This document shows positions 13,353-49,660 of a stretch of 64,000 bases of DNA, piece after piece. This DNA comes from Panorpa germanica (lineage: Eukaryota; Arthropoda; Insecta; Mecoptera; Panorpidae), in contig OY783212.1 in NCBI GenBank assembly GCA_963678705.1, forward strand, positions 17,856,001 through 17,920,000, in the 5' to 3' direction. A program made the position numbers and the translations under genes. Positions within the stretch are counted from its first letter, which is position 1. The number at the start of each line of letters is the position of its first letter. The notes below the pieces were generated by a model. It did not search any database. It was not told where the DNA came from and saw nothing but the letters and a program-made list of their open reading frames with translations.

Positions 13353-13947
13353 CAATTGATTGTTCACTGAAATTGATGTTAATAAATGCGTATTGGTGTG
13401 TCTATTTTATTAAATATCTAAATATTGACTGAGATATAGCAATTAAAAGTTTGTATTGTAGTTTTAGAGCTAGAAATGGTCGGCCATATTTGTATGATGT
13501 GAAATGCATTTTAACGCCAGTTATATGTTGAGTAGGTCAGTGCTTTGGTAATGTTTTGTAGCTGTTGGTGGTCAAATAATCAAGTTAAGTCAAAAAATAA
13601 TAAGTTTTTATTTTATTTAACCCAGTTAAGGCAGACATAATATTGGAATTTGATTGTTCCTTGAAATAGCTGTAAATAATATTTGATATTTTGATATATA
13701 AATACATATAGCAGAGATTTATGAGCTGTAAGGTTGGCAGCGATTGTGATGTCACATGCATTTGGAATGTGTACAACGTTGAATCCCTTTAATAATTAAA
13801 GAGACAAAATGTCTTTTTTAATTGTTAATATCTCTTACATATAAGGAGTTATTAAAATATAATTGAACATTTGAGGTTCTAGTAACCCACTTTATCAATA
13901 TATAGTACACTTTTGTAGAAATTAAGACATACGACACGAGCTCATTG
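13353..13947 (+). mobile_element. MITE family B, copy 2
   Basis: Matches the other B copies from AAATTGATGTTAATAAATG to the right terminus, here degenerate as GACACGAGCTCATT. The left terminal repeat is missing or replaced. Confidence 0.8.
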
Positions 13948-14610: not shown

Positions 14611-14790
14611 CAGAGATGTGCACAAATACTTTTCAAAAGCATTTAAATACAAAATGCAAATACCTCGTTATTTTCCTATTTCAAATACAAATATACTCTT
14701 AAAAGATATTTAAATACAAAATGGAAAATAGGTATTTACTATTTTGTATTTGCATTTTGAGTATATGTATTTGAAAAACGCACATCTCTG
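14611..14790. mobile_element. hAT-like MITE, family H, copy 1
   Basis: 180 bp with inverted ends CAGAGATGTGC. The 8-bp target duplication GTGAAAAT at 14603-14610 and 14791-14798 is exact, as expected for hAT elements. The internal sequence is built from AAATAC-type repeats. Confidence 0.92.
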
Positions 14791-15418: not shown

Positions 15419-18400
15419 CTACGGAAATAATAAAATTGGTTGATGTTCTCTATTACGTTGAAAGCAATAATTATTTGACTTACTGCAGCTATTTGTTTTT
15501 GCAGTTCATCGTTTTCTACCAATAGTTTTTGATAACGTTCTTCATCTTCTTTTGTAATTCCAACATCCGGATTGTATTTTGATTCAGCCTTATCGCGTGG
15601 ATGTCGGATCACCTCGATTACCTAAGATTATAAAATGTGTAAAATTTAATTTTAATATTTTACTTAAAGAGCCCTTAGAGCATATATATGGAGTGTGAAT
15701 AGCCTGTGTTTCCTATATATTAAAAGTGTGTCCAAAATGTGTTTGAGAGAGAAAGGTTCCTATATATATATGTTCCTATTTGTTCTATATGTGCTTGCGT
15801 CTAAAGTGACAGCTGTCTAGATATAATAAATATTAATATTCTATTAAGATATAATAAATATTAAATATGTAAAGAAATTATATTTCTTTAGATGGTATAA
15901 AGCTCGTCTGTCGGTAAAACAATGACTGTTCAGTGAAAACATATACTCATGAACACCATAGATGCGCTGTAGGGATAACGGCCAACACAGTTGATATTTG
16001 GAGTGGATAGAATTCACGTTTTTAGTTATCTATATCTACATTACTTTATTTTAGTAAAATGTCATATACTGTCAACAACTGTCACGTATTATATCTAGAC
16101 AGCAGTGACTTGACAACTGACACTTTCGACACAAGCGCATATAGAAAAAATAGGAACATATACTTTTCTCCCTCGCACACACTTTCAGGTTCAGCATTCT
16201 CTCTCCGTATATATATGCTCTAAGAAAGAGCCTAATTTGGTCTTAACTTGTTGTTTGTTTTGTTTTAAAAGTAAAGCTTGTTGCAAAATAATGTAATAAT
16301 TTACCTTGGGAACAAATATTAGTGCCATACTTAAGAAACAGCAGAAAATAACCGCAAGCGCCACGAAGGCAAAACTTGCGTCCTGCTGGCTGGCGATGAC
16401 CATTGTCACAGGAGCAGTGATCAAACACAGCACCACCACGTTGTAAATTGACATCCCCACGTATCGGGAATCGTTGATTTGTTTTACTTTGATAGAGCGC
16501 GTTTCGTAGGCCAGAAATAAACCAAAAACCAGTACTAGGCCTTTGTATCCATATATGACACCTGTAATATACATATATAATTATTATATATTCCGGAAAA
16601 TGTAAACAAGAATAATTAAATAGTTAATTAAATTTATTGCAATTATTTGTCTTCAAATATTTTGATCGTGCAACATTGTAAATTTGTTAAAACAATACTT
16701 TAATTTGAATTATGTAAATATGGCAACAACACATCGTGTTTTGTTTATATTTGACCACCGGTAAGTCATATCAACTTCTATTAATTATTACGCAATGTTT
16801 TATTTTTAACAAAAATTATTGTAATATGTTAGAGTAGTGCTTAAAGATTTTTATATGTAAAAGAAAGAGATAGCAATATTATTTTAAAAAAATATTTCAT
16901 CTGGACAACAACGCATCGTGTTTTGTTTATGTTTAGCCACCTGCACTGAAATCAATGATCGGTAAGTCATAACAAATTCTATGAATTATTTCGTAATGTT
17001 TCATTTTTAACAAAAATTATTGTAATGTGTTAGAGTAGTGCATATTTTTATTTAAGATTTTTATATTTAAAAGAAAGAGATAGCAATATTATTTTAAAAA
17101 TATTTTAAAGTAAATAACTGAATTTAAGGTTAGGGTTGTGGGTGGATGTTTTACAGATAAAGACGAGCTTGAGACACTCGGGTCGACTGCTTAATGATTG
17201 TAAGTTGAAGGAAAGAGATGAATATAGTTTCTATATTAATCTAACAAAATAATTAGCAAGTACATATTCATTTGAATTTAAAAAAATATTTGTTTCGTTT
17301 GCAAGTTGAAACAAGTCAAAGATTTACTGGAATGTACTACGTGTGTGGGTGTTGAGTGGGTGGTGATAGTGTGAAAATGTGGGATGGGGTAAGTTTAAAG
17401 AGTGGGAGGGGGGTAGTGTTAACTCTCATAATTTATTCGAGTTTACGATATAAATAATTATGCAGAAAAATATAAATAAACAACAAAAACTATAGCTTTG
17501 CATGTTCTATTTATCTTCGGACAATGCAAAATATTTCTGTGCATTTTTTTCAAATAATAACTGACACATTTCCCTGAAACCACATTTATCATGCGAGGCA
17601 AACGGTTATTGACATGTCACACGTGATGATGACAGATACTGATGTCCGTCCACATCGTAAAGTTAAATGAACATATCGAATCACTAATTACCCAGCCAGA
17701 TAGTGTTGTGTTCACTCTCGCAGTGCTCCAGTTCCGGTCTGATTTTAATATCATCCTCGGATGTGAGCGGTGCTTCAAGTGGAAATTGTTCTATTTTTCT
17801 TTGGAGGGGATCATGCAGCTGCCACGTTAAAAGAATCACGAAGTCAATGATAATAAGACCCGTTACCATAGTGTATAACTTCCACGGTTCAACTTTTTTC
17901 TAGAAATATTAACAGGTTATATTATAGATATAAACATCTCAATAGATATAGATCTCAATAGATTGTTTTTTATGTATGGTAATATTTTACCTTAGGGTCT
18001 GTTTTTGCTTTTGTTGTAAATCTATGTACTCGCCAAACTTTACTAAACATGGCGCCGTAAGCCAAAGTAAATCCCATTGATAAAAGCCATGATCTAGCTT
18101 GACAAATCTGGAGGAAAACAAAATACATCATTTATTTCTATTTTCATTAAATGCTGTCACAGATTTTTAATGGGCTTGTGTCCTCATTTTTTAGTGGTCG
18201 ACTTTTCAATTGTTGATTGACTATTTTATTAAATATCTAAATGTTGACGGAGATATAGCAATTAAAAATTTGAATTGTAGTTTTAGCGCTAGAGATGTCG
18301 GCCATTTGTATGACGTGAAATGCATTGTATACGCCAGTTATTTGTTGATTAGGTCAGTGCTGTGGTAATGTTCTGCAGCTGTTGGTAGTCGAAATAATCA

Positions 18401-21400
18401 AGTCAAGTCAAAGAATAACAAGTTTTTATTTTATTTAACCCTGCTAAGGCAGACATAATACGGATTTTATTATTCCTTGAAATAAATGTAAATAATATTT
18501 GATATGTTGATATATAAATACATATAGCAGAGATTTATGAGCTGTAAGGTTGGTAACCTGTAAACTTGCCACAGGTCTGTCAACAATATAGCTCTGTTGT
18601 ATAAAAGAGATAGCAACTAGCGGTTGTAAAGTCACATGCACTTCGAATGTTGTAAAACGTTAAATCCCTTTCATAATTAAAGAGAAAAAATGACTTTTTT
18701 AATTGTTAATATCTCCTAACATATAAGGAGTTATTAAAAATAATTGAACATTCGAGGTTCTAGTAACTCACTTTATCAATATACGAGTATAGTACACTTT
18801 TATAGAAATTAAGACATAGGACACAAGCCCATTATCGTCATCAATATTACACAATCTGTAATGCATTTACCGCGTTGTAGCAGAGTCTACCGTATTCCAC
18901 ATAATAAACAAAATCTGTTTATACCTTACAAATTAAAGATACATAATTCGCGATTCCAATTTGACTATTGCATTGTCTTGTATAAAACTGAATTCAAACT
19001 AAAACGTGAAATTTGTTTCGATTGCAAATAGACATATGAATTTCTAATTATTCTTTTTATTGTTTTTGAAATTTTTAACCTGAGGATAAGTCTCCGCACT
19101 GACGAACTGCCCGTCGATTCCCAAGAGAAGAACAGAAATTAGACAAGTGATTACACCGGATAACATAATCGTATTGCAGACCGGGTGAGATGTTTGTATT
19201 ACCCTGGAAATAGAAATCAATAATTGTCAGTACAGTAACTTTAAATTCTGCTGACTATAAAGCCTTATTCCCACTCACTGTTTTGATATTTAATTTACTG
19301 TTTTTATTTAATATTGTAATCTAGATTTCAGGTTTTCGTTTAAGCATTCCTTTTTCACATTTGTGTTTTAATTTAAATTTAGTTAATTTAGTTGTTGCGT
19401 ATGCATTGTTAGTAATACAAATTTTGACAGTTCGACAAAATTGTATGTGAAATAATTAAAATTGCTATTTTTAATACCAATTAGTAATAGAAATTGTTTT
19501 CACTTCTATATTTAAAAAAAACTGACATTAAACTTCTTTTAAAAGTAAATCCTACTGCATTTTGACACATTGTCACATTTTGGAGGTTATAATATAATAC
19601 AGTTTTTCTTTGATTTTTAATTTGAAACATTGTAAGGTTCTAGAAAAACTAAAAAAACTTAAAATATAAATTTAATTAAAAAGTGGTACCGTGAATGACT
19701 ACGCGTATTGCCATATGCTAAACAATTTAAATTAAATACAAAATACAACATTAAATTAAAGCAGTGAGTAGGAATGATACTTAAGAATGTACCTTCTGTG
19801 GCTATGCCATATGTTAAAAATTATTAAGCCAAAAGCGACGAAGATCCCTGCGCTGGATATAGTTCCCATGCAGACAAATAGTGGAAGCGATACAGTCCGA
19901 AGTACTTTTCTTACAATTGTTCGATCTTGAGGAACTTTGCCACCTAAAAGAAATAGTTGGTTTATGTAAATGTTATCATTGTTGGTCGTGGAGATGTTGT
20001 CAATCAACAGAGATGTGCGTTTTTCAAATACATATACTCAAAATGCAAATACAAAATAGTAAATACCTATTTTCCTTGTATTTAAATATCTTTTAAGACT
20101 AAAAATCCTTTTTTCATTTTGTTACTTCATAGTGCTAATCAGTAAATATTATTTTTTGAATATAAACTTAAAACCGAACCAACATTAGCACCATCTATGA
20201 TCTAAAAATATCTGCACTGATAGATGTGCCTATTATTTTATTATCCTTTCTGTTTCCCCCACCATAAGACATCTGATTTTCGTTTACCTAAATTTGTTTA
20301 TCATATTTTCTTGTTCATTATTTGTTTTACTACAAGACAATCACTCCAGTCTAGTGCGACATAAACATACGACACTAATAAAACTCTTACCTTTTATTTT
20401 TATGAAACAAAAATGTTTCAAAACGAAGTCGGTCTTTATCAAAGAGAATTCTCATAATTATCAAAAAAAAATAACATTTATATTAGTAACATAAAGAGTA
20501 TTCTATTTTCTCAAAAGTATTTTTAAAATACGTGAACAAATATTTGAAATAGGAAAATAACAAGGTATTTGCATTTTGTATTTAATTGCTTTTGAAAAGC
20601 ATTTGTGCACATCTCTGTCAATCAACTTACCAGCCCATTCTTCCCGATTCATCCACGTCAAGTTGTCAGCCTGTGTGTCATAATATCCAAGGATGTTATA
20701 GGTACCGTTGATCATTTGTTCTATCTGCGTTAAGGCAATACGATCTCCCTGGGAACTGAATGCCACGACACCCTAAGACAGAGAGAGAAAACTTTGAGAA
20801 GTAATTAAGATAAGAGAAAAGTTTGTGGTCAGTTTGGGAAACCTAATACAATTAAAGTTATAAATTGTAAATGATTTGATTTGTTCTATAATTGTATTGT
20901 ACTCAAATACTGCAAAACCACATTTGAACTTTTTGAAGGAAACAAGAACTGAAAACAATATGAAACAACAGATACTGCTACTCGATACTTTAAACTTGAG
21001 ATGTTTAAAACTTTGTTCAAAGTATTTAACTTCATCATTTATTAATTAAATAATAAAAGTTTAGACATTTAATGTTTTATTTGCTGCTTACCGAAACTCC
21101 TAAGAACTGCGTTGAATTAATTGCTGCGTAGATATCATCTGCTGTTTCCTTATCTGTGTAAGTGAAATTTTTTAAACTTTTTCCTTGTCTGCTTAACCGG
21201 GACATCGTTTTATTGAAAGCCAGCGCGACGCTCCAGACTGCATCGTATGCCAGAGGTGCTTCCTGGTATCCTTCAGGGTAACGACCGTTGTCTATGTCGT
21301 ATCCATCGGAACGAAGGACATCTTCCAGGCGACTTCTAAAAAGGGAGGGTTTTGTAAATTAATTATTGAGATTATATTTCCTTTTTCACAACCATCGTAA

Positions 21401-24400
21401 TATAATAATTGTGAAATTGTCTATGAATTGCCATCTACTTTACACAACACACAAAAATAATTCATTATTAATTATTTTTATTTTGTTTATATTTAGTTTA
21501 AACATTATTATTATTTTGTTTATGTTTGACCACCTGCACTGAGATCAATGACCGGTAAGTCATAACAAATTCTGTTCATTATTTCGTAATGTTTCATTTT
21601 TAACAAAAATTATTGTAATGTGTTAGAGTAGTGCTTAAAGATTTTTATATGTAAAAGAAAGAGATAGCAATATTATTTTAAAAATATTTATAAAGTAAAC
21701 AATTGAATTTAATGTTAGGGTTATGTCGATGGATGTGTTGCAGATAAAGACGAGGTTGAGACATTCAGGTCGACTGCTTACTGATTATCAGTTGAAGAAA
21801 AGAGATGGATATAGTTTCCAGATCAATCTAACAAAATAACTAGCAATTACATATATATTTGAATTTAAAAAATATTTGATTTGTTTGCAAGTTGAAACTT
21901 GAACGTGTGGTGTGGAGGGGGTACGGATAGTATGGAAAGAGAAGTGTAAAAGCAAACATTTATATTTTTTGTAAATTAATAATTTGCCAAGAACTTTCCT
22001 TAAGTCGTTTAATATTTGATGGCAAAGTTTTCTATAAATTAATAAATTCTTGCTTTAAAATTGTCTCCGCGTACTATAACCTTTTCTCATTACTAAAACG
22101 AACCCGTTGAAATATACGAGGAAGATATAATAAATAGGAGGAACATGTCCTTAGCCCTTTATTCCACTTTTATGTCTTCTGACAGTCATCAAAGGGAGAA
22201 AGACTGGAGCGACATAAGCTCTTTAGATCTCAGTTCCTTTTAACATCGTTTCCACAACTGTCTCGGTACGTAAAATTCATTATTAATTTGCTGCTGAACT
22301 GAAAGTCATATTGTTATAAGCAGAAAACCGTTGTCACTGCTCGGTCTTCGTACACACTCGTGAACACTCGTGCACGTTTGAACGAGGTTTGAGCTTCGAT
22401 TAATATTAAATTAATTAAAATCTTGTTCTAAGCTGATTTAAAGATTAATGAAGTATTTGTATTACATAATATGTAGGTATAGTAAGATTACGACTTATCT
22501 AATTGATAAGTACATGTTAACATAGGTTTTAATGAGGTAGTGCAATGGTTCTGAACCTGTGAACCGCATTCCCACTCACTGTTTTGATATTAAATTTACT
22601 GCTTTTACCTGTAATCTAGATTTCAGGTTTTCGTTTAAGCATTCCTTTTCACATTTGTGTTTTAATTTGAGTTTAGTTATTTTAGTTGGCGCGTATGCAT
22701 CGTTAGTAATATAAATTTTGACAGTTCGACCTAAAATTGTATGTGAAATAATTAAAATTACTGTTTTTAATAACAATTAGTCATAGAAATTGTTTTCACT
22801 TCTATATTTTTGAGAAACTCTCATTGAACTTCTTTTGACAGATTGTCACATTTTGGAGGTTATAATATAATATAGTTTTGCTTAATTTAATATTTTTAAT
22901 TTGAAACGTTAGATATTGTAAGGTTCTAAAAAAACTAAGAAAACTTAAAATAAAAATTTAATTAAAAATGGTACTGTGAATGACTACGCGTATTGCCATA
23001 TGCTAAACAATTTAAATTAAATACAAAATTAAATTAAAGCAATGAGTAGGAGTAATACTTAAGAGGTTGCAACTTATTCAAGTTATTTCTCTTCTTTAGG
23101 TAATGTACAAAATGCAATAGCCTCACAAATGTAGGAAAAGAAATAACGGCGCATTTGCATAAGTAAATTATCCCCGCTAAACAGTTCTGCGAATTTAAGG
23201 TTATCTAACATAATAAAAATCACGACAACAATATTACCTAATATAAAATGTTTCATTACCTATTTTTCGGCTTTTAAAAAAATAAGTGTAAGTGCCTTTA
23301 ATAAATTTTAAAATCTAGAGAATACATTTGATTAACGTTTTTAAAATAGCTGTAAAATAATAAAGCAAAACCTAATTAAATAAAATATTACATGAATGAA
23401 AATCAACATTCATTTTTTGTGTTTAGCGGCTCCTTCTTTTCTAAATTCTATTCGAAAAGATATTCCACACACAACGTATTATGAGAGGTCTTAAAGGTTA
23501 AGAACCACTTAGCTAGCGGCTGAGATGTATTCCAACAATAGAATGACTGACATATTAGATGGGAACACAAAGACACTGCCTTCGAGCTTCGCGTGTGTTT
23601 GTAGCAAGGTAACAGTAAGAGAACAATCAATATGAAGGTTACAATTCTACCTATTATATTAATTTCAATCAAGGTATGATTATTCATGCTTCACAAATGT
23701 CTCAACTACATACGAATCATGATTAAGGGCACCATTTCGCTTAAGAGTAAGTTGTAAGGTTTATTATTATAAGAGTAACGTAGAGTATATTATCTTATTT
23801 TATGGGTTTATAAGATATTACATTAACCGCTGAGGATTTTTACATTCATTACGTCTTTTATAGGCGTCGGTGGTGTAATGGTCAGCATAGTTGCCTTCCA
23901 AGCAGTTGATCCGGGTTCGATTCCCGGCCGACGCACTTTCTTTTAAAATTTTTACCATTTACATAATACGTACACCGCAATTTCGAATATATGACTCCTC
24001 TCTACCCTAAAAATAACAACATCCCTACTACCTACAACCCTAATACCGGCTAGAGCCTTTCCAACGTCAAACCATTCTGTGCACACCACCACTACTCTTT
24101 CTTATTAAGCCTTTATAATAATTAAAAACAAGTTACAAATATTTTACTAGTCCCAACGCAACGGCTGAGTATAGACATAAGGGTTCTTTCACCCTTTGAA
24201 ACAGACTGCGTTCGACATACTACTTTGTAGTAGAGTGTATTGTAGTTGCTTTGCATTAGCACACTTTATTAAGGTAGCAAATTGATATTTTAATATGTAT
24301 TAATACACTACTGCTGCGAAATAAGGGCCTTACTACACTGCAATCCTTTTCTTGTGTAATGCGAATTCCTCTTTGTGTTTACGATATCATATATCTAAAA

Positions 24401-27400
24401 TATAGTATATAATATAGTATATATATAATATATACTTTTATTACTTTCGATCCAGTAGTATATTGATAAATATTTCAATAGAAACTTCCTCTCATGACAA
24501 AGTGTGTTAATGCGAAACAACTCCAATACAATCTCTGTTCCACTGTGAGATAAACCCAACGTTTTAGCGTCATCCATTTTCAGGCTAGTGCTAGTGAAGT
24601 GGAAAATTTCTTAGAAGTAACCTAAGTGCGTTATACACAGTTTGTTAAATATAATCAACAATGAATCTGTCAATTAACTAGGACACAAAACAAATATTTA
24701 CCTAAATTCTTCTCTTGTCATTCCAGATATTGTTTTTTGGTTATTCCGGTTCCACATCAAAGCTTCCGTCGTCAAGTGTCCTTCCGCTGCGATTTTCATT
24801 TGTTCCTTCGTACATTCGATGCCTTCCTTCTCCAAATTCACTTCAAACCAATTGTCCTCGTACCACCCTAAAATTCATCAAATATTTGCTCACACTTTTA
24901 TACAAATTTCTTATCAGTGCTTAAAACCTCATTCCCACTCACTGTTTTGATATTTAATTTACTGTTTTTATTTAATATTGTAATCTAGATTTCAGGTTCT
25001 CGTTTAAGCATTTCTTTTCACATTTGTGTTTTAATTTAAGTTTAGTTAATTTAGTTGGTGCGTATGCATCGTTTGTAATATAAATTTTTAAATGTGAATT
25101 AATTAAAATAGCTATTTTTAGTAACAATTAGTAATAGAAATTGTTTTCACTTCTATATTTTTCAAAAACTGACATTAAACTTCTTTTAAAAATATATACA
25201 TAGTTTTTCTTAATTTAATATTTTTAATTTAAAACATTGGACCTTGTAAGGTTCTAAAAAAAACTAAGAAAACTTAAAAAATAAATTAAATTAAAAATGG
25301 TACTGTGAATGACTACGCGTATTGCCATATGCTAAACAATTTAAATTAAATACAAAATAAAATTAAAGCAGTGAGTGGAAATGATACTTAAGACTACTAA
25401 TCATTTTAATTTAGAATAACAGTTTTTTAAAAAAGTTTATAAATAAGATGACAGAAAAGAAATAAATAATCAAGATGGCAAATCAGCGGATGTGATTGCA
25501 CCTACCAATAAAGAACCAGACGTAAGACCTTCCATACAGCTGCTGTTTATACATTTCACACAAAACTCTTCTCGCGGCAACAACATAGAAGAGTCCCACG
25601 ATGACCCTTGCATCCTGTCTTCGTAAATTACGTACTGCATCTGTAGGATCTGATAAAAAAGATTGTCTTGTCACGATTTCGATTCCAGATTCAGTACACC
25701 TCGACTCCAAATCCTCGACAGTCTGTGGAACAATATTTCACCAGTTAAACCACGATCATAATCACGAGAATTCACAATATGTCTATATAACATAGAAGTC
25801 AATGTAATAATAAAAGGGAACGAATCAAAGTTGATTTGTTGTTTTCCATTCTCTAAAATTGACACCATTTGCTATCTAAATTACCCTTTCAAAAGTCCAT
25901 ATGTCCGTTTTAACGTTAGCGAATATACGGGTGAATGAAGGGGAGGGTTTTGCGCTCTGTTCTGTTGAACTTTGATCCTTAGAAATTTAAACCCTTTGAT
26001 AAGAGTAATTGAGATATTAAAATGACCACATTTGGAATATATAGAGCATGGAACAGGGGTTGTGAAGTTATGGATGCGTGCCAGATTGAACATTTTGTTG
26101 GCACGTTTCCGATTTATTTGAGATATAATCATAAAAATTCAAATTTGCGGATAGAATTCAATTTAGTCCAAATCCAATTATTTCATAAGAATATTTGTTT
26201 CTCTTTCCAACACCATACATTTAAATATAGTCTTAGTATAGTTGTCTCTTTTACATGTGAAAATATTTATTTTAGAATAACATAGAAAAAGAAACAAGAT
26301 ATATTTGTCTCTGTTACACTTTAATGGTTTATTTGTAACTTCATTCACGGTAGTGAGGCCAGGTGAAGTGATTTTGCCAAAACGATAAAAAATAGCATAT
26401 TTTCGATAATGTTTTTGGACGACACAGTTAATATATAATTATTTCTATAATTACTACATGATAAAATGACATTTGAAGAATACTTTGTGATATTTTCATA
26501 AATAAATATCAAGGAATGAGACATTGATAGCGAATCTCCGCAGACGTCACAAGAAATAGTAACATTGCGCTGCCACTCATAACTCATCACTGGATTTTTT
26601 TAAATCGAAAAACCAAAATGATTTCATTAGTTGATTAGTTTCTGCATGTAACGCTGTCGCGTTTTTATTTTTTGAAAAAAATCAGAAACTTTGTTATTTT
26701 AAAATACGTTAAAATAAAAAAATTAAAAAAAACTCGAAAGCGTTATCTCGACATTTATGTAAAGAAAGAGTGTGCAAAGTTTTAAAAGAATCGGTCCAGT
26801 AGATTTTGAGCTAGAGAGGGCCCCGACTCTAAAAAAGCTATGTGTGAGAAACCGCATTTAAAAGTTTCAAAGTAACACGAAAGCAGATCAGAGAAGTGAA
26901 GACTTAAAATTCTATATCTCCGACAGTTTTACTCCAATCGACTTCAAATTTTTACACAATAAACTTAATATGTTGTACAATAATATAAATACATTAAAAC
27001 AAAGTTAAAACCTTAGCCCCCCCTTAACGGCATATCAGAATTTCGTAATGTGCTCCTAAAAATGTTTACCACTACTGATATATAGTACTAGGTTCATTAA
27101 TTCTCAACGTGTCAATGCTGCTGAAGTGGGGTGTCCTACCTTTTGATAAATGAAGAACTGTACATTGTATAGTGTTTTGCATGTAGTGAATAAATATGAT
27201 TCCATGTTTACTAGAATATCCATTAGAGTTGGAAAACTAGCAAGTTGGAGCACTTGACATTGTGTGAACTCGTTACCCGTACCAGTTCATGTTCATGCAA
27301 TGCCAAGAAGTTAATATTATTAGGTGAACTTTTCTTTAAGACTGACCTCCACCACTTGTTGCTGATGTGGTATACTATAGCAGACTATTACTATTGCAGA

Positions 27401-30400
27401 TAATGAAATCACAACAGCGCGATAAAATAAATAAATTGTTCGAAAAATCGTGCAGTTTGTCTTACGCTTATAATATAGTCATAGATATAGTTATAAGCTT
27501 ATACATTATTGTTGAATATTGACCTATTTCTGCGTCTCAGTTTCTTTTCTATAATGTTTATCAATTCTGCTTAAAGCCTCATTCCCACTCACTCATATTT
27601 AATTTACTGCTTTTATTTAATATTGCCATCTAGATTTCAGGTTCTCGTTTAAGCATTCCTTTTCACATTTGTGATTTAATTTAAGTTTAGTTAATTTAGT
27701 TGGTGCGTATGCATCGTTAGTAATATAAATTTTTAAATGTCCAATAATTAAAAATGTTACTTTTAATAACAAATAGTATTAGAAATTGTTTTCCCTTTTA
27801 TATTTTCCAAAAACTGACATTAAAGTTCTTTTAAAAGTATTGACTGCATTTTGACAGATTGTAAAATTTTGGAGGTTATGATATAATATAGTTCTTCTTA
27901 ATTTAATATTTTTAAGCAGAGATGTGCACAAATAGTATTCAAAAGTATTTAAATACGTACAAATACGACACAATAAAATCCCCTATTATGCTATTGTTCA
28001 AAATTCTATAGAGTCACGAAACACGGCTCGACTAGTTTGCAATCAGTATACAGTAGTTTTTATTGTGTTTTGCACAGTGTCGTTGTGATTTTCCTACAGA
28101 ATAAGCAGATAATGATGGCCAATTGATATTTAATATGGTAGGGATATATACAAGCAAGAAAAATGCGGAATACGAAGAAATTCTGATTCCTGGATTAGTA
28201 GGAAACTTAAGAGCCTTGTTGTTAGTTAAAGAAAATCAAATTCTATACTCCTTCGTAATTACCATATCAAGTTTCTTTCTCTACTATCAACATCGTAGAT
28301 TCTTCGAATATCAAAAAGCAGCACTCGAGGGGTAATTACCCCTCGTATTAACCCCTTGTGCGTTACTATATTACCGTTATCGAATTTCATTATCGAATCA
28401 TCTTGGATTTCGCCGGTTGAAGCCCGGTTGTTTATTTTATATTATAAAAAGGTAAAGCGCTAGGTAATATTACAGTATAATCTATTATATCAGATTGTTT
28501 ATCCTGGATAGATCCCGCTATCCTGTATCCAGTGCAGAGACGGCACTGGATACAGGATGAATCCTGGTCAGTGGGATGTCTGACGTAATAAGTATTGCCA
28601 AGGGAGAAAAGTTATGGAAATTAATGTAAATATTGTGAATATTAAATTAGGAATTTAAAATATACAACAATTTCTTTGAGCCGAGTTGGTTTTGTAATAG
28701 CTTCTGTTGATTTACGAAGTATGAGAGCTTGAAGAAGATACTTTCATGATATTAGAGCGAAAAAGAATTTAATATTGTATATGATTTTGAACTGATTTTA
28801 TATACGAGTATATTCTAGAGATGCTTTGAATTTAGCTAACGTAGTGCAAAAGTGGGTAAGGCTTCAACTTTTGTCTTTTAATTTTTTCTTTTATTTATCA
28901 TCATCTTACTATTATAATGTTCGTAATGTTCCAATTTAACATGGAAAACTCATAAGAACTCATAGATATTTATATATATATATATATATATATTTCCGGT
29001 AACAAAATCTGTATGGTATCTTCTAAACGGCGCCTACAAAGTTTTTTAAATTTTGATATTATGTAAAGGACGAATTTCTAAGACTTTCTACGTCCCTGAA
29101 TTTTTCCCTGAATTTCCCTGGAAAAAATTATTCTGGAAAAACTGGAAAATTTGAAAAAATACTTTTGCAAATATCTGACGAACTAGAAAAGATAGGAAAC
29201 TGAAATTTGGTATGTGTATTGAGATCATAATTGTGCACATTTGCCAATAGTTGGACATTTAAAATTTAAGTTCAGTAGCGGCGCGAATTTCCGGGGGCAA
29301 TGTTAGAATAAAGTTAGGACGTTCAAATTTAATATGTAGGCTCGCTCTAGAGTGTTATTAATGAAAAAAAATAAAGAGCCCCAAATTTCCAGTGGCGGCG
29401 GGAGTTGAGTTAGTAAAAGCCAGAAATATTGAAAAAGTAGTAATAAAACTTAGGGCATGTATTAAGACACTAATTGCGAATGTTGCCAATAATTGGATTA
29501 CAAAAATATTAATTCAGTAGCGGCGTGATTTTTTGGGGGCAATGTTGCAACAGAGCTAGAACGTTGATATTTGGAACGTGGGCTCTATATAGAGTGTCAT
29601 TAAAGACAAACTATAGAAAACTGCAACTTTCCAGAGGCGGCGGGCGCTGTGGGCCAAAAACCAGAAATATGAAATATATAGAAATAAAAGGCTATAGTTT
29701 AGATTATATGTTCTTAGATATAAATAAAATAGATCCCTGTGTTAAAATTTGACAAACTTGTTCAGTAGCGCAGGTATGTGGGGGGGTAATAATGCTAAAT
29801 ATAAATACAAAGCTAAAATTTAGTATGCAGATATAGATTGACAAATTAATAACGAAAATATAAAAAAAAAATCCTTTTCTTAAGTGTAACACTAGAGTGG
29901 GGAGTGATAAACCGAGTATAAGAACAAAATAGAGGTACAACGATGATATTTTGCATGTAGAATATTAAATAGAAGCACAATAGTTCTCTATAAGTTAGAT
30001 AGTCAAATTACATTCAATAGTAGAATTGAATTGATTTTTGGTGCGTTCGTTGTGCTGTGAAATCGAACAGGAGTGAGAGGTATAGTTAACAGCCCCAAAT
30101 ATCAAATTAAAAAAATAGAAACTACGCATGTGCATATTTGCGAAAAATAAGTTTAACCTTAGTAGCGGCGTGAAATTGGGGAAGTGGGGGCGGGAAAGGC
30201 TTTGCCAAAGAGCTCAATTTTAAATTTCGATCATTTATAAAAGTAGATAGTAGTAATAAAGGTTATAAAAGTAGAGAGAATTGTTATGAGCAAAATAGAT
30301 TGTTATGCCTAAAATTTGTCAATTTTATTTCAGGAGCGGGAATTAATGGGGAGGACAATATTATATCGTAAATATAAATACAAAAATTAGAACGTAAGAT

Positions 30401-33400
30401 TACAGTGCAGTTTTAATTATGTAAATGAATTGCTGTAATATTGAATTGGTAGTGCCTGATTGGAGGAGAGGGTGGCGCCGGGGTTCAGGACACCAAGTAA
30501 CGGTGGTCTTAGAAGAAGTAGCGATAGATTATAATGGTTCTGGAAGATAACCGTGTTGTAGAATATGTGCTTTGGTGCTGGAAATGTGGGCGGCGGTTCA
30601 GGGGATTAAATTGAAAGTACAATAACGGGAAGGATAAGGGCTAGAGATGAGATGATTAGGAGCGAACCGCTAGGCTTTCTTAAAAACATAAATGAATTGA
30701 TGTAATTAGTAGGTTTACATTGAAATGAGTGAAAATTAATTTTATCAAGCATTTATCTTATCGAATAATTGTTAAAAAATAATATACTTCTAAGGATGAA
30801 ATTTAGTGTGTAGGTTGCCAGTAAAGTATTAATTATGAAAACTAATTGTTAAGAGTATTAGTACGCAGGAGGTAAAAGCGCAAGATTGTTTAATGATTGC
30901 GGTAAAAGGGGCGATAGGACAGTGCCGTTATGTGCGATGATTCTCAGGTTGGCTGTGGTGTTGCAAGTGGGCGCATTGTGGCAGAGGTGCAGAGGAATAC
31001 AATTGAAAGTGCGAGAACGATACAGAGCATGGAGCCAAGAGGTGATGATTAGTATTACGGGGCGGGGCAGTGGACATTTCTCAATACTGCGCTTTATTAG
31101 GGTATATAATAATTTTACACAGAGAGGAGGAAACGAAGGATTATTTAATTATAGTGCTAAAGCGGGTCCGCTGTGAATGTACTCTAAGGACCGACGATGC
31201 TCAGGAAAGAAGCGATACAGAGTGCTGAAGGAAAAAGGCGCTCCATGGCGGAAGTTTAGAGGAATCAAATTAAAAGTTCGGAAATGTAAGAGAGCATGGA
31301 GCCAAAAGGTCATGATTGCGGCTTATGGGCGGGGGCACTGGAGACTGGTCAATACAGTGCTTTATTACTGTAAATAAAAGAATTATAACAAAATAAAAAA
31401 AAAAAGTTTAAAAAAGGATATATTATAACGAAAATTACTTAAAAATAATATTTTGCATTATTTTCAATTTAGCAAATAAATTTATTTATTCACAAATATT
31501 AGATACACGTCGCTTTGCGACGGGGCGAAGCGCTAGTCATATATTATAATGTCCCAGGTGTATATTTGTTTTCTTATATTCTTATATGTTTGGTTCAAAT
31601 TTTGTATGGCATCTCGAAAACGGCTCCATGGAAGTTTTTAAAAATTTCCTATTTCGTAGAGAAAAAAATTCTAAGACTTTTGGCGTCCCCGGATTTTTCT
31701 CTGAATTTCCTGGAAACCCGTAATTTTGGAAAAACTGGAAAAAAAGTGATTTTTTTTTTGCTCTTTAACTTTTAATTAGTAAAAGATAAAAAGTTGAAAT
31801 TTTGCATGGGTATTAAGGTATTCAATGCTGACATTTCTCAAAAATTAAAAATTCAAAAATTCAAAAAAGGGGGGTTCAAGAAATTCGGGGGCCCGGTAGG
31901 GAACTTTTGAGTAAGTTTATATTCTGCATTCTAGAATAATTAAGTATATTATTAATAAAAAAAAATTAGAAATTTCAAAATTTTGTTTGGGGGCACGGGG
32001 GGCAATATTTGCCGAGAGTAAAAATTGTGCTAGAAAGTTAAAATTTTGTATATAGGCTAACCTTGGTAACTTATTTACGAATCGAAAAAAAAAATCCCAA
32101 ATTTTGAAAAAAAGTTGGTCAAATAACGCATAAATTGAAAATATTTTTTATTTTGAAAAAAAAATAATATTTTTTTAGTCAATTTATATGTGTGTATATG
32201 TGCGCGAGTTTATTTATTATTTCAATTTAAAAATAGAACAGTTAAATATGAAATTTAATTACGAATTATTTTATTGGATTTAAATGATACACGCCAAAAA
32301 GACGTCGCATTGCGACGGGGGTAAACTCAAGTATATTATAATGTCCCAGGTGTATATTTATATTCTTATATGTTTATGTGTTTATATGTTTGGTTCGAAT
32401 TTTAAATGGCATCTCGAAAACGGCTCCAGGGAAGTTTTTAAAAATTTCCTATTTCGTAGAGAAAAAAATTATAAGACTTTTGGCGTCCCCGGATTTTCCC
32501 CTGAATTTCCTGGAAACCCGTAATTTTGGAAAAACTGGAAAAAAACTGATCTCTTTTTTGCTGTATTACTTTTAATTCGTATAAGATAGAAAGTTGAAAT
32601 TTTGCATGTGTATTAAGGTATTCAATGCTGACATTTCTCAAAAATTAGAAATTCAAAAATTGAAAAAGGGGGGGTTAAAGAAATTCGGGGGCCCGGTAGG
32701 GAACTTTGGAGAAAATTCATTTTCTGGATTCTAGAATAATTAAGTATATTATTCATAAAAAAAAAATTTTAAATTTTAAAATTTTATTGGGGGGCACGGG
32801 GGCAGTATTTGCCGAGAGTAAAAATTGCGCTAGAAAGTTGAAATTTTGTATATAAGCTAACCTTGGCAACTTATTTACGAATCGAAAAAAAAATCCCAAA
32901 TTTTGAAAAAAAGTTGTTCAAATATCGCATAAATTCAAAATATTTTTTATTTTGATATAAAAAATGTATTTTCTTAGTCAGTTTGTATGAAAAATTAATT
33001 GTTATTAAATGTTAAATCAATATAGGACGAGTTTATTTATTATTTCAATTTAAAAATTAAATTTTGACTTAAAATTCAAGCCACTCACAAAAAACAAACG
33101 TCGCTTGCGACGGGGGTAAAAGCTAGTATATTATAATGTCCGAGGTGTATGTTTATTTTCTTATATGTTTATATTCTTATATTCTTATATGTTTATATTC
33201 TTATATGTTTACGCGATTCGTATGGTAGCTCGAAAACGGCTCCATGGAAGTTTTTAAAAATTTCCTATTTCGTAGAGAAAAAAATTCTAAGACTTTTGGC
33301 GTCCTCGGATTTTTCCCTGAATTTCCTGGAAACCCGTAATTTTGGAAAAACTGGAAAAAAAGTGAACCCTTTTTTGCTGTATTACTTTTAATTCGTAAAA

Positions 33401-36400
33401 GATAGAAAGTTGAAATTTTGCATGTGTATTAAGGTATTCAATGCTGACATTTTTCAAAAATTAGAAATTCAAAAAGTGAAAAAGGGGGGGTTGAAGAAAT
33501 TCGGGGGCCCGGTAGGGAACTTTGGAGAAAGTTCATATTCTGGATTCTAGAATAATTAAGTATATTATTAATAAAAAAAAATTCAAAATTCCAAAATTTT
33601 ATTTGGGGGCACGGGGGCAGTATTTGCCGAGAGTAAAAATTGTGCCAGAAAGTTGAAATTTTGTATATAGGCTAATCTTGGTAACTTATTTACGAATCGA
33701 AAAAAAAAATCCCAAATTTTGAAAAAAAGTTGGTCAAATAACGCATAAATTGAAAATATTTTTTATTTTGTTAAAAAAAATAATTTTTTTTAGTCAATTT
33801 ATATGTCATGTATATGTGCGCGAGTTTATTTATTATTTCAATTTAAAAATAGAACAGTTAAATATGAAATGTAATTACGAATTATTTTATTGGTTTCAAA
33901 TCATACACGCCAAGAAGACTTCGCTTTGCGACGGGGGTAAACGTTACTGGAATTTAAATTTTTACATGAAGTTCAAGCCACACACAAAAGACAAACGTCG
34001 CTTGCGACGGGGGTAAAAGCTAGTTTATTTATATTATTGTACAACATATTAAGTTTATTGTATAAAATTTTGAAGTCGATTGGAGTAAAACTGTCGGAGA
34101 TATAGAATTTTAAGTCTTCACCTCTCTGGTCTGCTTTCGTGTTACTTTAAAACTTTTAAATGCGGTTTCTCACATATAGCTTTTTCAGAGTCGGTGCCCT
34201 CTCCAGCTCAAATTCTACTAGACCGATTCTTTTGAAATTTGCACACAATTATTGTGCCATCCCCCACAGAGTCATAATGCACCATTTCTCAAGACGAGGG
34301 GAGTTGAACATATTTTCTAACATTAACATTAAGTAGCGTATGTGAGCACTGGCGTAGCTAGGTATGGGCCAGTCGGTGCTGGGCACCGGGGCCCTCAAGC
34401 TCAGGGGGCCCTCGGACCAAGACCAGCAAACCTCATATTGTACTAGCTAAAAATTCTCCAACCTTTGGAATGTAAATAAAATAGGTATATATAAATAAAA
34501 TAGGAATGTAAAAAACACGAATTTAAGGTAGTACTGTCGGTCAGAGATCAATGACCGGTAAGTCATATCAAGTTCTATTAATTCTTTTGAAATGTTTATT
34601 TTTAGAGAAAAATTATTGTAATGTGTTAAAGCAGTGCTTAGTTTCATTTAAGTTTTTTATATGTAAAAGAAAGAGACAGCAATATTATTTCAAAAATATT
34701 TATAAAGTAAATAATTTATGTAACTATGGCAACGCATCAGTGTTTTGTTTATATTTGAACTGAATTGAACACGTGCAGCATCAAGTTATATTAATTATTT
34801 TGGAATGTTTCATTTTAAAGAAATATTTTTATAATGTGTTAGAGCAGTGCATAGTTTTATATAATATTTTTATATGTAAAAAAAGAGACAGCAATATTAT
34901 TTTAAAAATATTTATAAAGTAAACAATTGTATTTAATGTTCGAGTTATGTCGGTGGTTGTCTTGCAGATAAACACGAGTACTTATTTGAATTTAAAAAAA
35001 TATTTGATTCTTTAGCAAGTCGAAACTTGAACGACAAACCATTGTCGAGTGGGTGCTGATAGTGTGGAAAGAGAGGTGTAAGGGGCAGGTGCAGTTTCAT
35101 TATTTTAACTCTTGTGTCAAATTCTTATATAGAGATATACGCGCCAAATTCAAAATTTACTGGCCTAGAATTTTTAAATAAATTCACTTAGATATATATT
35201 TTGAGTCAAGCTCAGGAGGCCCTCAAGTAAAATATATATATATATATTACTTGATAAAACCTAAACAGTTGAGTTAAGGCCCCAGTTTTTTTTTTGCACC
35301 GGGGCCTTTGGTTACCTTGCTACGTCACTGTATGTGAGTACGTGCATACTTGTTCAAAGAAAATTCTTCAAGATTGTAAAATACTTGAGTTGGAGTATAG
35401 ATAAATATTCAACGTGTACAACTAGGGGTAGGGGTAGGAGGATGGAGAATAAGAAGGTGGCCGGTGTTTACACAGAAGTACGAGTACGTATCATATCCTT
35501 TAAAATGTTTATAAAGCACTAAGCACATTCTTAAACATTTTATTTAATGAAAATAGACAGAACTTCAGATAAAAAATATTTAGAAAATAATAAAAAGGTG
35601 ACTTGAAGTGGAAAGGAAGAACTGAGGGGGTAGTTACTGGGTTGGATAACTAAATAAAATGTTTTATGATGAATAAAGATAACTGTTCGACTTTTGACCT
35701 GCATAAATAATGTTATAAGGAAAGTACCACTTAAAATAGCCGCAAACAGTTTACATGGGTTTTTATTTTCAATTGTGATCTATAAAATGGTGGACGGATA
35801 TAAAGGCATCTTAAACATTTATTGTATACTTACAAATTGAAACACAAACAGAGCGGAAAGCAAAATTTTAAAGAAAATAAGAGAGGATAGCATAAAGAAT
35901 GGGGGGGAGGAGGTCCAAAAAAGAGAAAGGAATACTTTGAAAGGAATGGAATGGCGATCGAGGAGGCAGAGAACAGAAGAGAAGGTGGCGCAAGTGTGGA
36001 AGAGGAGCTAAGGAGAAGGGATAAGGAGATACAACAGCAGGAGAGAATGGGCAAAATAGAAAAAAGTAACTACAATAAAAGATATAAAAGGTTATGTAAA
36101 AATAATGTGCCTCAGTACCTTATAGAAAAATACATAAAACACATAAGAAGAACAGCAAGGTTTAGATTGGGAAATGAGGAAAAAGGAAACAGATACTGGG
36201 AAAAGAGTGAGGAAAGAAAATGTAGAATGTGCGGAGCGGAGGACGAAACACTGGAGCACATTAAGTTTGAGTGTAAGGAAAAAGTAGCGAGCGAAAGGAA
36301 TATTGGCCAGCTACTAAAGGAAGGCAGTGAAGGAAAGAGGTGGATGGCGGAAATAGTAAGAAGGAAAGGAAGAACAGGAGAATAAATAAGCTGGTGGAGA

Positions 36401-39400
36401 ATAATGTAAATTTAATTGTAATTTGAAGTATATGGGATGTAATAAGAATGTAGATTGTAAAGCCGAAAGGCGAACAATAAACAATAAATAATAATAATAT
36501 ACTTACAAATTTGAATAAATATTTGATTTTCTACATTAAGAATGTAATATAAATTTTAGATTGGTTTTTTCTTCTATTATTACTATTTTATATTTTACGT
36601 GAACGTATATTTTTAGATTTGCAAATGACGTTATTAATACATATGTTTTCAGTTCACTTGATAGCATTAACTTTTGAAGCCATGGATCCATGTTCATGTT
36701 ATAAAACCACCTGAACAGGGAAACCAGGTATTCTGGTGAAAAATATTTGTAAACAAATGTAGTACGATGATAAAAAAAAATAATTGCTAAAATAGAAATA
36801 AATGCAAAATAATACTTTTTATAAAACAGCAAATAAAACATCGCGGTGGTACGAACCCCAGTCCAGGTCCAGGTCCAGGTCTAGGGTGAGCGTATAAGCT
36901 ATGGCAAACATAAAAAAATATAAAAAAGTAACAAAATAGGAAATGAACAAACCACAAACCAAGAAACTGACAAAGAATAAAACGGAAAACTTGGATAAAA
37001 TCTTCAGGGATCGGACGAGTCAGAAAATAATGTCGTCAGAGACAGAATATAACATTGTAAAATGTTATAAAGGATTGTCCCTATAAAAACGTTGTTTAAA
37101 AGATGTGGTATGTTCAGAGGCGTGCTGTACCATACTAACAAACTGTCTAAATTATCAGTTAAAATATTATCGAAGGATTCTATCTTACAACAAGTTAACA
37201 GTGTGCAAAAATGCTATGTAAAGATTAATATAGTTGCTAAATATTGTATGCTGCATGAATGAATTAACGAATTCAATACACAAGCCTCATTCCCACTCAC
37301 TATTTTGATATTTAATTTACTGTTTTTATTTAATATCATAATCTAGATTTCAAGTTTTCGTTTAAGCATTCCTTTTCACATTCGTGTTTTAATTTAAATT
37401 TAGTTAATTTAGTTGGTGCGTATGCATCGTTAGTAATATAAATTTGGACAGTTCCACAAAATTGTATGTGAAATAATTAAAATTGCTGTTTTTATTAACA
37501 ATTAATAATAGAAATTGTTTTCACTTTTTTATTTTTCACAAACTGACATTGAACTTCTTTTAAAAGTAAATCCTACTGCATTTTGACAGATTGTCACATT
37601 TTGGAGGTTATAATATAATATAGTTTTTCTTAATTTAATATATTTAATTTAAGACATTGGACCTTGTAAGGTTCTAAGAAAAAACTAAGAAAACTTAAAA
37701 AATAAATTAAATTAAAATGTGTTAAACAATTTAAATTAAATACAAAATAAAATTAAAGCAGTGAGTGGGAATGATACTTAACGCAGTTGCATATATTTAA
37801 TGTTTATTTAACCTAAAAAACTTAACCTGTTACATAATCTTTTTAAAGTTACTTCGACTTTCGACATAAATACGTCAATAAATCTTTTTATGCAAGATTA
37901 TATAATGTAACATGTTAAATTATTATGTTACTAATGTCTTTTACATTTATTTAATGATTATGTATTATGAATTATGTTAAACATGAATGTATGTTATATG
38001 TTCAGCAGGTTCGAGGTTGCATGATTGTTGCTTAATGGGTACGATGCTTAAGATACCACAAAAAGAAAAACAAAAGTAAATAAATATGTGACAGATAGCA
38101 GGAAAATAAGCACCACTTCTTAGTGATTTGGGAAGCAGCCAGCGCGAGCGCGGTTCTGTTGCTATAAATTATTAATATTTTAACATTATTATATTATGTT
38201 ATACTCGTACATCAGATATAATAACGACATGACTTTTTGTGTATACGAAGATATTTCTAAAAAATGTTTAACCACAAATATCACGTTATAAAGGAAGAAG
38301 GAAATGTGAGGAAAAATGGAGGAAATTTGATTACGTAGCCTAATGAAATTCTATCTCATGGAATTTATTTATTTTATTTGGAATTTAACCCTAAGGGTGT
38401 TTTGATTTGCTGAGAGTTTTAAACTTTTGAGATGGGCTGGATATGTAGCCAGGTAAATGTTTAATAGAAAAGGAACATTTTAGAATGATTTAAACTTAAG
38501 AGGGAGGGGGTTAATGTTTCAACTTTTTTATATTATTGTACAACATATTAAGTTTATTGTGTGAAAATTTGAAGTCGATTGGAGAAAAACTGTCGGAGAT
38601 ATAGAGTTCTAAGTCTTTACCTCTCTGGTCTGGTTTCGTGTTACTTTGAAATTTTGCGGTGTCCTCTCTAGCTCAAAATCTACTAAACCAATTCTTTTGA
38701 AATTTTGTACACTTTTTCTTTACATAAATGCCGAAGTAACGCTGTTGAGTTTTTTTTTATTTTTTAATTATAACGTATTTTAAAATAACAAAGTTTCTGA
38801 TTTTTTTCATGAAAAATCGGTATTTTGACTTTTAAGTGCTGTAAAAAATTGAAAACTCAATAAAAAAAGAAAAACTCGACAGCGTTACTTGCAGAAACTT
38901 ATCAACTAATGAAATCATTTTGGTATTATGATTTCAGATAATCCAGTGATGAGTTATGAGTGGCACCGCAATGTTTCTTTTTTTTTGTGACGTCTACAGA
39001 GATTCGCTGTCAATGCCTCATTTCTTGATATTTATTTATGAAAATTTCACAAAGTATTCTTCAAATGTCATTTTATCATGTAGTAATTATAGAAATAATT
39101 ATATATTAAATTTGTCGTCAAAAAACATTATCGAAAATATGCTTCTTTTTTATCGTTTTGACCTTACTGTTGTTTTTTAAATTGTAGGTTAATTACTGGC
39201 TCTCTGTACTGAATGCAAATTGGTGCTCGTATTTAATGAATATTAAATTTAATTAAGTCAAGAGTCTAACGCACAACTATGCCGAGCCCACGTTCGATTA
39301 GTATTAATTTTGTGGCTGTTTAAAGAAATCTGCGTCTACAGTGAAGACTCTGCTTTAGAATATATCAAATCATGATGTGATTTCACTTACCGATATAAAA

Positions 39401-42400
39401 ACCTCCTCAGCTTGTTGCAGAATGGCAATGCGTGACCACCCGAACCTCTCCATGAGCTTAATCCTCGTAGGGTTGTGTACCGTGGCTGAAGGGTGGGTTC
39501 TGAATAACGTTGGAAAGCGTCGACGGTCTGACAAGGCGGGTGAACTCGCCCCATAACAAAGCTGAAAGTGATACAAAGATTATGCTTTATATTATACGTA
39601 TGTACGAGTAGTAAACGAACCTCCTCCCTCCCTCTTGTCTCGTATGAGTGGAAGAACAGGGTCATCGAAAAAGATGACCTGATTTCAAAACTGAAATGTA
39701 TCTGGAAATAAAGGAACTGAATAGTTTTCCTTTCTACATTGTAAAATGTGCGGAAGTTTTTCTAAATTTTCAGTTTATCAGCTAAAGATAGTGAACTTGA
39801 TTGACCTGAGAAAGTGTTTCTTATTTTATAGTTTATTCAAAAGTAACGCAAATTTTTGGTGGTTCAACGATCCGATTTTGAGATAACCCAGTAAACATTT
39901 GGTGAAATAGAATGGCTAGGTGAAGTTCTACTCCCTCGTACTGTTTAATTCTAACGTTTTACAAGTTCGCGCTACACACAGAAAATCAATTTTAGTTCAA
40001 ATTGATTGCCTACCTGTCACAGGAGTCGCTTTTATTCAACAGTGAGCAGTCGTTGCGCCGTCTGTAGCTCATAAAAGAGACATTCCCTATGAACGACTGA
40101 ATAGAAAACAAACGCGTTCATGACAAAAAACTCATGAAAGTAATAGAAATGAAATAGAATTTACTCTAAAATGTTTACTGGGAATTTAATATGTATAATT
40201 AAGCAGTGCAGTAAGAACAAAACATAGAATTTAAAGAAAAATACTTTTTTAGTAGTTTACAATGATAACACAGTGTGTTTACAAGGAACATATTTCAAAT
40301 AAGTAGCAGATATTTTTGATCATCCTGTATGGTATAACAAAAAGATAAAATGTTATTTTCATATGAAATCTGATACCATGTCAAATGATGCTTATTCAGT
40401 CGGAAAATTGCAAATGGAACATTGGAAAAACTACATATTTAATATTTTTTTTTTTTACAAAGTTTACAAAACGAAATAAAAGTATAACAATTTTCGGTTT
40501 TCTTTGTACGTCAAATTTATAATTCACTGCACGCAAATAACCCTCAGGCCTTGCGAGATTACTTGTAAGAGAACACAATTATATACCGTGCATACGACAT
40601 GCAGAGCCGCATTAACCGATAGACTAGTAAGGTAAATGCCTATGGCCCGTAATTCGGAGGGGACCGAGATTTGTGTTTTAAAATGTTACGTGGAAATATT
40701 CCATATACTTTGACCTAACATTTGATGACTTATAGCCTCAATACTTTTTATTTGTTGAAACGTATTTTATTCTTTTAGGTTATATTTATCTTTGATATAT
40801 TTTAAACAATGGCAAAAGGGCAGAGTAAGGGAAGCGGAAAATGTATATAGCTAACGGCGATTGTATATACAACAATGTAAAAAAGTAAGGTAACTTTAGA
40901 AAACAAATCACAAATCGCAATGTAAAAATTTTGGCGCATTTCAAATAGTACATATGTAATGTTTATATCCATTGAAATGTCATGATGAAACGTTTTGGAA
41001 ATGACGCTCAATTTACAATCTAAAAAGCTACGAGTATGTTGAAAAAAACTTGAATCTCTTCCCTCTTAGGCTAAAGTCGCACTGTAAAATAAATTCGTAT
41101 TTCTGTAACATAAAATTCGCGTGAAAAAATCTGCAGTTTGAAGCAATTTATTACAGCTCGATTTTTTCAGCTCAAAACAATTTTTTTTACAGTAATTTTA
41201 TGCCAGTTTTTGTCTCATATAATTTGCACAGTATATTATGCACCCGTATGTATAAATGCGCTTCTATTTATGTTAGAACAATACATGTTCAATTTAGGTT
41301 TTTGTAATTAAAGTAAGTGTCCAATGTATTACCTTCCTAACCTGGAATAATGTTGTGGTGCTCTCACAAGGGACCGGAACTCCGAACTTTGCGAACATTT
41401 CTACGAATTGTAAAGGATACAGTATTACAGTACTCCATAGATTCGACATCGGTTCGACATTGGTTCGACCCACGCACACATTAGGTGAGACTAGTCATAC
41501 AGTATGTGATGCTGGTTTCGTGTCCTTGTATTTAGGGTTGCGAGACATTGGGACAACTGGGACCCGTTTCCCGGGACATTTCCTAGGGAGTAATGAAGAG
41601 CTACGCGCTCCAGTCCCTTCTACTACGCCTCCCTCCTCTTCATGCCACACTTAAGTACGTGATTACATACACGAGAGTGCATGGCAGACACATTCGGAAA
41701 CCGGGGACCAAGAAAGACACGTGATCTTGCAGGGAGCTTGATTCGCAATCGCGTATCGTGTGTCCTCATTTTTTAGTGCTCGATTTTTCAATTGTTGATT
41801 GAAATTGATGTTAATAAATGTGTATTGGCGTGTCTATTTTACTAAATATCTAAATGTTGACGGAGATATAGCAATTAAAAATTTGAATTGTAGTTTTAGC
41901 GCTAGAAATGGTCGGCCATATTTGTATGACGTGAAATGCATTTTAACGTCAGTTATTTGTTGAGTAGGTCAGTGCTGTGGTAATGTTTTGTAGCTGTTGG
42001 TAGTGAAACAATCAAGTCAAGTCAAAGAATAATAAGTTTTTATTTTATTTAACTCTGCTAAGGTAGACATAATAATGGAATTTTATTGTTCCTTGAAATA
42101 GCTGTAAATAATATTTAATATTTTGATATATAAATACATATAGCAGAGATTTATGAGCTGTAAGGTTGGTAACCTTACACGAGGATTGTGATGTCACATG
42201 CACTTGGAATGTCTACAACGTTGAATCCCTTTAATAATTAAAAAGACAAAATGATTTTTTTAATTGTTAATATCTCTTAACATATAAGGAGTTATTAAAA
42301 AATAATTGAACATTTGAGGTTTTAGTAACCCACTTTTATTGAAATCAAGACATAGGACACAAGCCCATTGGATGCCTGCGTGGTTTATTAGGAACATTAG

Positions 42401-49021: not shown

Positions 49022-49660
49022 AATGAGCTTGTGTCCTCATTTTTTAGTGGTCGATTTTTCAATTGTTGATTGAAATTGATGTTAATAAATGTGCATTGGC
49101 GTGTCTATTTTATTAAATATCTAAATGTTGACGGAGATATAGCAATTAAAAGTTTGAATTGTAGTTTTAGCGCTAGAAATGGTCGGCCATATTTTTATGA
49201 CGTGAAATGCATTTTAATGTCAGTTATTTGTTGAGTAGGTCACTGCTGTGGTAATGTTTTGTAGGTGTTGGTAGTCAAATAATCAAGTCAAGTCAAAGAA
49301 TAATAAGTTTTTATATTATTTAACCCTGCTAAGGCAGACATAATATTGGAATTTGATTGTTCCTTGAAATAGCTGTAAATAATATTTGATATTTTGATAT
49401 ATAAATACATATAGCAGACATTTATGAGCTGTAAGGTTGGTAACCTTACACAAGGATTGTGATGTCACAAGGACTTGGAATGTGTACAACGTTGAATCCC
49501 TTTAATAATTAAAGAGACAAAATGACTTTTTTAATTGTTAATATCTCTCAACATATAAGGAGTTATTAAAACATAATTGAACATTTGAGGTTCTAGAAAT
49601 CCACTTTATCAATATATAGTACACTTTTATAGAAATTAAGACATAGGACACAAGCCCATT
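49022..49660 (+). mobile_element. MITE family B, copy 5
   Basis: 639 bp, from AATGAGCTTGTGTCCTCAT to AGGACACAAGCCCATT. Both ends present. Confidence 0.88.

Follow-up and report, generated by a model that had tools for sequence, protein, structure and literature searches.

In a 64,000-nt stretch of Panorpa germanica DNA, referred to here as the window, a 610-bp element that belongs to a large family is bounded by an exact 8-bp duplication and sits beside an unchanged donor site. We consider it very probable that this element, from a Hermes-like hAT family, inserted into a 69-nt intron of a GABA-B receptor subunit 1 gene and left the donor intact, and that the intron is normally spliced.

The element and its host intron

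Between 24867 and 15134, ten minus-strand exons join as one open frame that matches GABA-B receptor subtype 1 (E 4.6e-301); judged by this match, the host gene is GABA-B receptor subunit 1. The gene model used here comprises the ten 3'-most exons, and the exon label e6 was taken from an earlier note on this DNA. Exon e6 (20631..20772, minus strand; 142 nt) encodes the end of the ectodomain. The following exon (19793..19943, minus strand; 151 nt) encodes what we take to be the start of the membrane part, judged by the alignment. Between them lies a phase 1 intron of 687 nt (19944..20630, minus strand), which before the insertion would have measured 69 nt. A tRNA-Gly (tcc) is found within the 3,366-nt intron of the same gene (23864-23936, plus strand).

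The element, a non-autonomous hAT, occupies 20008..20617 on the plus strand. The inverted ends, CAGAGATGTGC, agree at 11/11 positions on both sides: CAGAGATGTGC begins at 20008 and its reverse complement terminates at 20617, and the match at both ends extends to 12 bp when the flanking base is counted. With at most one mismatch, CAGAGATGTGC occurs seven times in the window, five of them exact, compared with 0.38 expected (100 shuffles, largest count 2). The earlier note had reported an exact 8-bp duplication at 20000-20007 and 20618-20625, and we found TCAATCAA at precisely these positions, exact in both the acceptor-side copy (20000..20007) and the donor-side copy (20618..20625). Taken by itself, TCAATCAA is not rare (11 occurrences in the window, 5.5 being expected), and the chance agreement between two random 8-mers of the window is 9e-5; the duplication carries weight because it exactly abuts both ends of the element, not because it is rare.

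The host intron reads, in order, GTAAG, TTGATTGA, the 610-bp element, TTGATTGA and 56 nt ending in AG. The proposal that the element entered at the edge of the donor was borne out, as the first base of the duplication on the minus strand is donor position +6 (20625). Removal of the element and one copy of the duplication leaves exactly 69 nt (687 – 618), in agreement with the earlier estimate, and the intron used there for comparison (15483-15419) measures 65 nt as described. Splice sites were scored with an approximate matrix of rounded frequencies; by this matrix the unchanged 5' splice site GTAAGT (20625..20630, minus strand) scores 7.5, the highest of the nine donors in the gene, and the acceptor, TTTTAG, ranks seventh of nine. 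The strongest competing donor, AAG/GTAAGA (20390..20391, minus strand), lies within the element and scores 6.3, and the next in the intron, at 20262, scores 3.9. The AAG at the 20390 donor was present in 0 of 20 aligned family copies: the commonest form is AAA/GTAAGG (7 of 21 rows), and the G at position –1 is private to the window copy among the 21 aligned rows.

We propose that a transposase acting in trans moved the non-autonomous element. A staggered cut would have spanned positions +6 to +13 of the 69-nt intron, and gap repair would have doubled these 8 bp. GTAAGT and the next 7 nt (13 nt together) would then have stayed beside the exon, and the last 56 nt, which carry a presumed branch site and polypyrimidine tract as well as the acceptor, would have come to lie beyond the element. 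The insertion would have lengthened the intron about tenfold, from 69 to 687 nt, while the strong donor would still be recognised and the entire intron removed. We suggest that the insertion was tolerated because it hit the short unconstrained stretch that separates the donor from the branch region. The earlier note had credited the duplication with keeping the donor intact; this holds, but every staggered insertion has that effect on its flanks, and we regard the present case as well preserved but of an ordinary kind. In searches of the 464-Mb assembly (249 contigs), the upstream flank, consisting of the exon and the intron before the element, gave one match and no second, empty copy. Read in this way, the locus would record the entry of a transposon into a very short intron that stayed unbroken, both splice signals having been spared by the stagger of 8 bp.

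We give almost no credence to the alternative that the element itself made the intron in the manner of an introner, with the splice sites arising from the insertion. A MITE-like element with a target site duplication inside an intron is compatible with such an origin. However, the acceptor and the first five donor bases lie outside both the element and the duplication, with which only donor position +6 is shared; 5 nt of donor stand on one side and 56 nt including the acceptor on the other, and what remains is an ordinary intron of 69 nt, GT...AG and in phase.

The family and its hAT affinity

In the assembly, the 610-bp query retrieved at least 89 matching pieces (40 of 2211 first-look candidates scored), and the 180-bp relative described below, used as query, retrieved at least 77 (40 of 2544 candidates scored). 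Among 20 copies from the 610-bp query, the target site duplication was exact in five, had one mismatch in four and two mismatches in one, and no pair was found for the other ten. Among 20 copies from the 180-bp query, four duplications were exact and two had one mismatch; in 14 no pair was found within the short stretch examined. In the set from the 610-bp query, one copy (L015) has an exact duplication, yet three mismatches in one inverted end, and another (L011) has two perfect ends, yet is among the ten without a pair. The family to which the window element belongs is large and non-autonomous, and its 8-bp duplications vary in sequence. The longest stop-to-stop frame within the element is 97 aa, for which Pfam gave no match; short, non-coding and of high copy number, the element is a MITE.

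A second family member, 180 bp long, is located downstream of the GABA-B gene (14611..14790, minus strand) and is flanked on both sides by the exact duplication GTGAAAAT. It has 97 bp and 77 bp of the ends in common with the 610-bp element (96%), in opposite orientation. Solo ends of the same family were observed at 27917 and 50776, with about 130 bp in common (80%) including CACAATAAAATCCCCTATTATGCTATTGTT; for neither did a search over 9 kb reveal a partner end with a corresponding duplication. Elsewhere in the window (31507-33942), a stretch with a strong G-over-C skew contains diverged direct repeats that are spaced by about 0.8 kb and resemble one another at 87-90%.

In an alignment with 20 copies, four blocks (58, 27, 149 and 24 bp) that are present in at least 10 of these copies are missing from the window copy, which is accordingly a version of an approximately 870-bp form shortened by internal deletion. 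Of 589 sites on which the family agrees well, it differs at 22; six of these cluster at 527-533, where an effect of the alignment is possible. A divergence of about 4% indicates that the copy is not fresh.

We next consider the affinity of the family. Three copies (L011, L025 and L026) contain interior sequence that is absent from the other fetched copies. In L025, a 54-aa frame has two matches elsewhere in the genome, a 610-aa open frame (C7:8837635; E 2.9e-17) and, with E 7.3e-10, a disrupted piece at C3:21360218. The 610-aa frame in turn matches Hermes transposase structures in the PDB with E values of 2e-7 to 6e-7 (2bw3, 2e-7; 8edg, 2.8e-7), and the Pfam domain Dimer_Tnp_hAT was detected at its C-terminal end with 15.0 bits, under the cut-off of 21.4. 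Its DNA is 77% identical to parts of L011 and L026 and 86% identical to parts of L025, and the DNA beside it matches positions 95-341 of the element (75%). The copy carrying this frame has diverged ends and unmatched flanking 8-mers. The locus at C3:21360218 (L064) is 1,517 bp long and has both family ends, a duplication matching at 7 of 8 positions and transposase fragments in between. Among the genome copies examined, no intact transposase was found between intact family ends; no hAT match was obtained in Pfam for four transposase pieces or in a PDB sequence search with one of the four. Because some family copies carry Hermes-like transposase fragments, membership in hAT rests on more than the ends. 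Through L064 and the 610-aa frame, the ends in the window are tied to a Hermes-like hAT, and the hAT-like identity suggested in the earlier note agrees both with these fragments and with the 8-bp duplications of the family copies.

We regard it as highly improbable that the element should be assigned to a different superfamily of transposons whose duplications are likewise 8 bp long. The inverted ends and the length of the duplication, taken alone, would be compatible with such an assignment; however, L064 carries hAT transposase fragments between the same ends, and the relative's frame of 610 aa has its match in Hermes. We retain the assignment to hAT and turn to the duplications themselves. 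The Hermes target pattern is given as nTnnnnAn in PMC10368747. Among 11 exact duplications, two of them from the window, T at position 2 or A at position 7 is present in 10 (57% expected), and both are present in 2 of 11 (12% expected); TCAATCAA fits at one of the two positions. The central TA of the Buster pattern, nnnTAnnn, is seen in 0 of 11 (11% by chance). On these sequences, the pattern appears to lean to Ac/Hermes and away from Buster.

Two candidate sources of transposase in the genome were rejected. One was the young hAT family of greatest abundance (L029-L058): in the 3,240-bp stretches compared, which stop short of one family end, the element was unmatched. A hAT gene about 1.5 kb from the family copy L059 lies outside that copy. 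The L029-L058 loci form a separate young hAT family, in which 585-aa frames occur in 8 of the 30 listed loci (one with a stop) and matches of at least 1.4 kb between L039 and other loci are 97.8-98.7% identical. Exact-pattern scans for the family ends gave 0 matches in viral and prokaryote contig collections, which says little because these collections hold viral and prokaryote contigs. A literature search combining the start of the inverted end with 'hAT' returned unrelated papers only, judged by titles and abstract starts.

Predicted folding and splicing

The earlier note had also proposed that a donor so close to a fold-prone element might splice with variable efficiency, and this part fared less well. 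We consider it unlikely that the insertion damps or varies splicing by folding on itself, with a stem extended through the duplication to the donor, U1 partly blocked and some of the intron retained. In equilibrium predictions that leave out proteins, the fold of the region is somewhat more stable than those of shuffled versions (z –2.46), none of which, in a set of 20, folds as well. In the predicted structure the inverted ends pair with each other, and wobble pairs formed by the two TTGATTGA copies would lengthen the stem to donor positions +5 and +6. The predicted probability that the first intron base is unpaired is 0.02-0.14 with the element, compared with 0.05-0.84 without it (12 contexts each).

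However, the predicted cost of opening positions –3 to +6 is 5.6-7.1 kcal/mol with the element and 3.7-5.4 kcal/mol without it, a difference of 1.0-2.1 kcal/mol over 12 matched contexts. In five partial transcripts, in which the far arm is not yet transcribed, this cost is 3.0-3.8 kcal/mol. In a single matched context, opening the U1 site is predicted to take 6.5 kcal/mol when the element is present and 5.3 kcal/mol when it is removed, and 20 shuffled elements placed in the same context gave 5.1 ± 1.0 kcal/mol, 2 of 20 reaching the native value. Since the opening cost lies within the shuffled range, a strong effect on splicing is unsupported, and the donor concerned is the best scoring in the gene. 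The models thus allow some effect on splicing, but do not predict a strong one, and normal removal of the intron remains our preferred reading.

We also derived the products of altered splicing in silico. Retention of the present 687-nt intron would add 42 residues and then a stop, truncating the receptor ahead of its membrane part. The 69-nt intron assumed for the empty state amounts to 23 codons without a stop, so that ancestral retention would have kept the frame and added 23 residues, although this may be due to chance. The insertion would in that case have turned an in-frame outcome of 23 residues into a stop after 42. Skipping of the 151-nt exon gives an immediate stop after ...EWAG.

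The neighbouring intron and known systems

The next intron (19792-19204) is 589 nt long and contains a 521-bp MITE (19781-19261) that is flanked by TTA at either end and has similar inverted ends. Its first base is at intron position +12, and an intron of 65 nt is left when it is removed. We take this MITE to be Harbinger-like, a label that derives from the TTA duplication, a 3-bp duplication being weak evidence. Its relatives in the window are located at approximately 22568-23064, 24922-25393, 37282-37781, 61439-61912 and 27563-27899. The following intron holds a 659-bp element (18172-18830) with the ends GGGCTTGTGTCC and GGACACAAGCCC, to which stretches at approximately 1446-1978, 13399-13946, 41759-42369, 49022-49660 and 51436-52051 are related.

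We infer that both introns around the 151-nt exon grew through different MITEs near the donor. As the gap between donor and branch site is small in introns of 65-69 nt, survival would leave insertions near the donor, although two cases are too few to establish this. It is a rather remote prospect that the independent insertions at +14 (hAT) and +12 (Harbinger-like) placed the 151-nt exon, once recognised through intron definition, under exon definition, so that it could be skipped. If this were true, the skipped form, stopping at ...EWAG, would be a soluble ectodomain like mammalian GABAB1e. Two adjacent short introns of one gene with one insertion each provide a small, testable natural case. 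Invertebrate introns under intron definition have been argued to be selected against transposable element insertions, and in the fruit fly, the introns that bear such elements have a median of 5,822 bp after subtraction of the element, compared with 72 bp generally (PMC2911107).

With regard to the host gene, a comparison can be drawn with a mammalian isoform. The human counterpart of the 151-nt exon is also 151 bp. In mammalian GABAB1e, loss of exon 15 truncates the receptor ahead of its membrane part (PMC2987798). Skipping of the 151-nt exon here would have the same outcome, although GABAB1e is a real splice form and the product described here was obtained in silico only. MITEs also occur in gene introns of Helicoverpa, where hAT is among the less represented superfamilies (PMC9033116). 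The present element is likewise intronic in an insect gene, but its placement next to a donor is not reported in the passages of PMC9033116 consulted.

The family resembles the Hermes/Ac group in its 8-bp duplications, its short inverted ends and the match of its relative's transposase to Hermes. Inverted ends of the Hermes group begin with CAGAGA. Unlike that group, the window copy carries no transposase, the copy with a full frame has diverged ends, and the fit of the duplications at both positions (2 of 11) is near the background of 12%. A further comparison is offered by Mar, a hAT MITE of Drosophila willistoni, which is described in PMC3517528 as non-coding, frequently in or near genes, and canonically 610 bp long, with 11-bp inverted ends, CAG(G/A)GGTAGGC, and 8-bp duplications whose consensus, nnnTAnnn, places it in the Buster group. 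The window element differs from Mar in its inverted end, CAGAGATGTGC, and in the central TA, seen in none of the 11 family duplications, but shares with it the length of 610 bp, the 11-bp inverted ends, the 8-bp duplications, the lack of coding capacity and the association with a gene.
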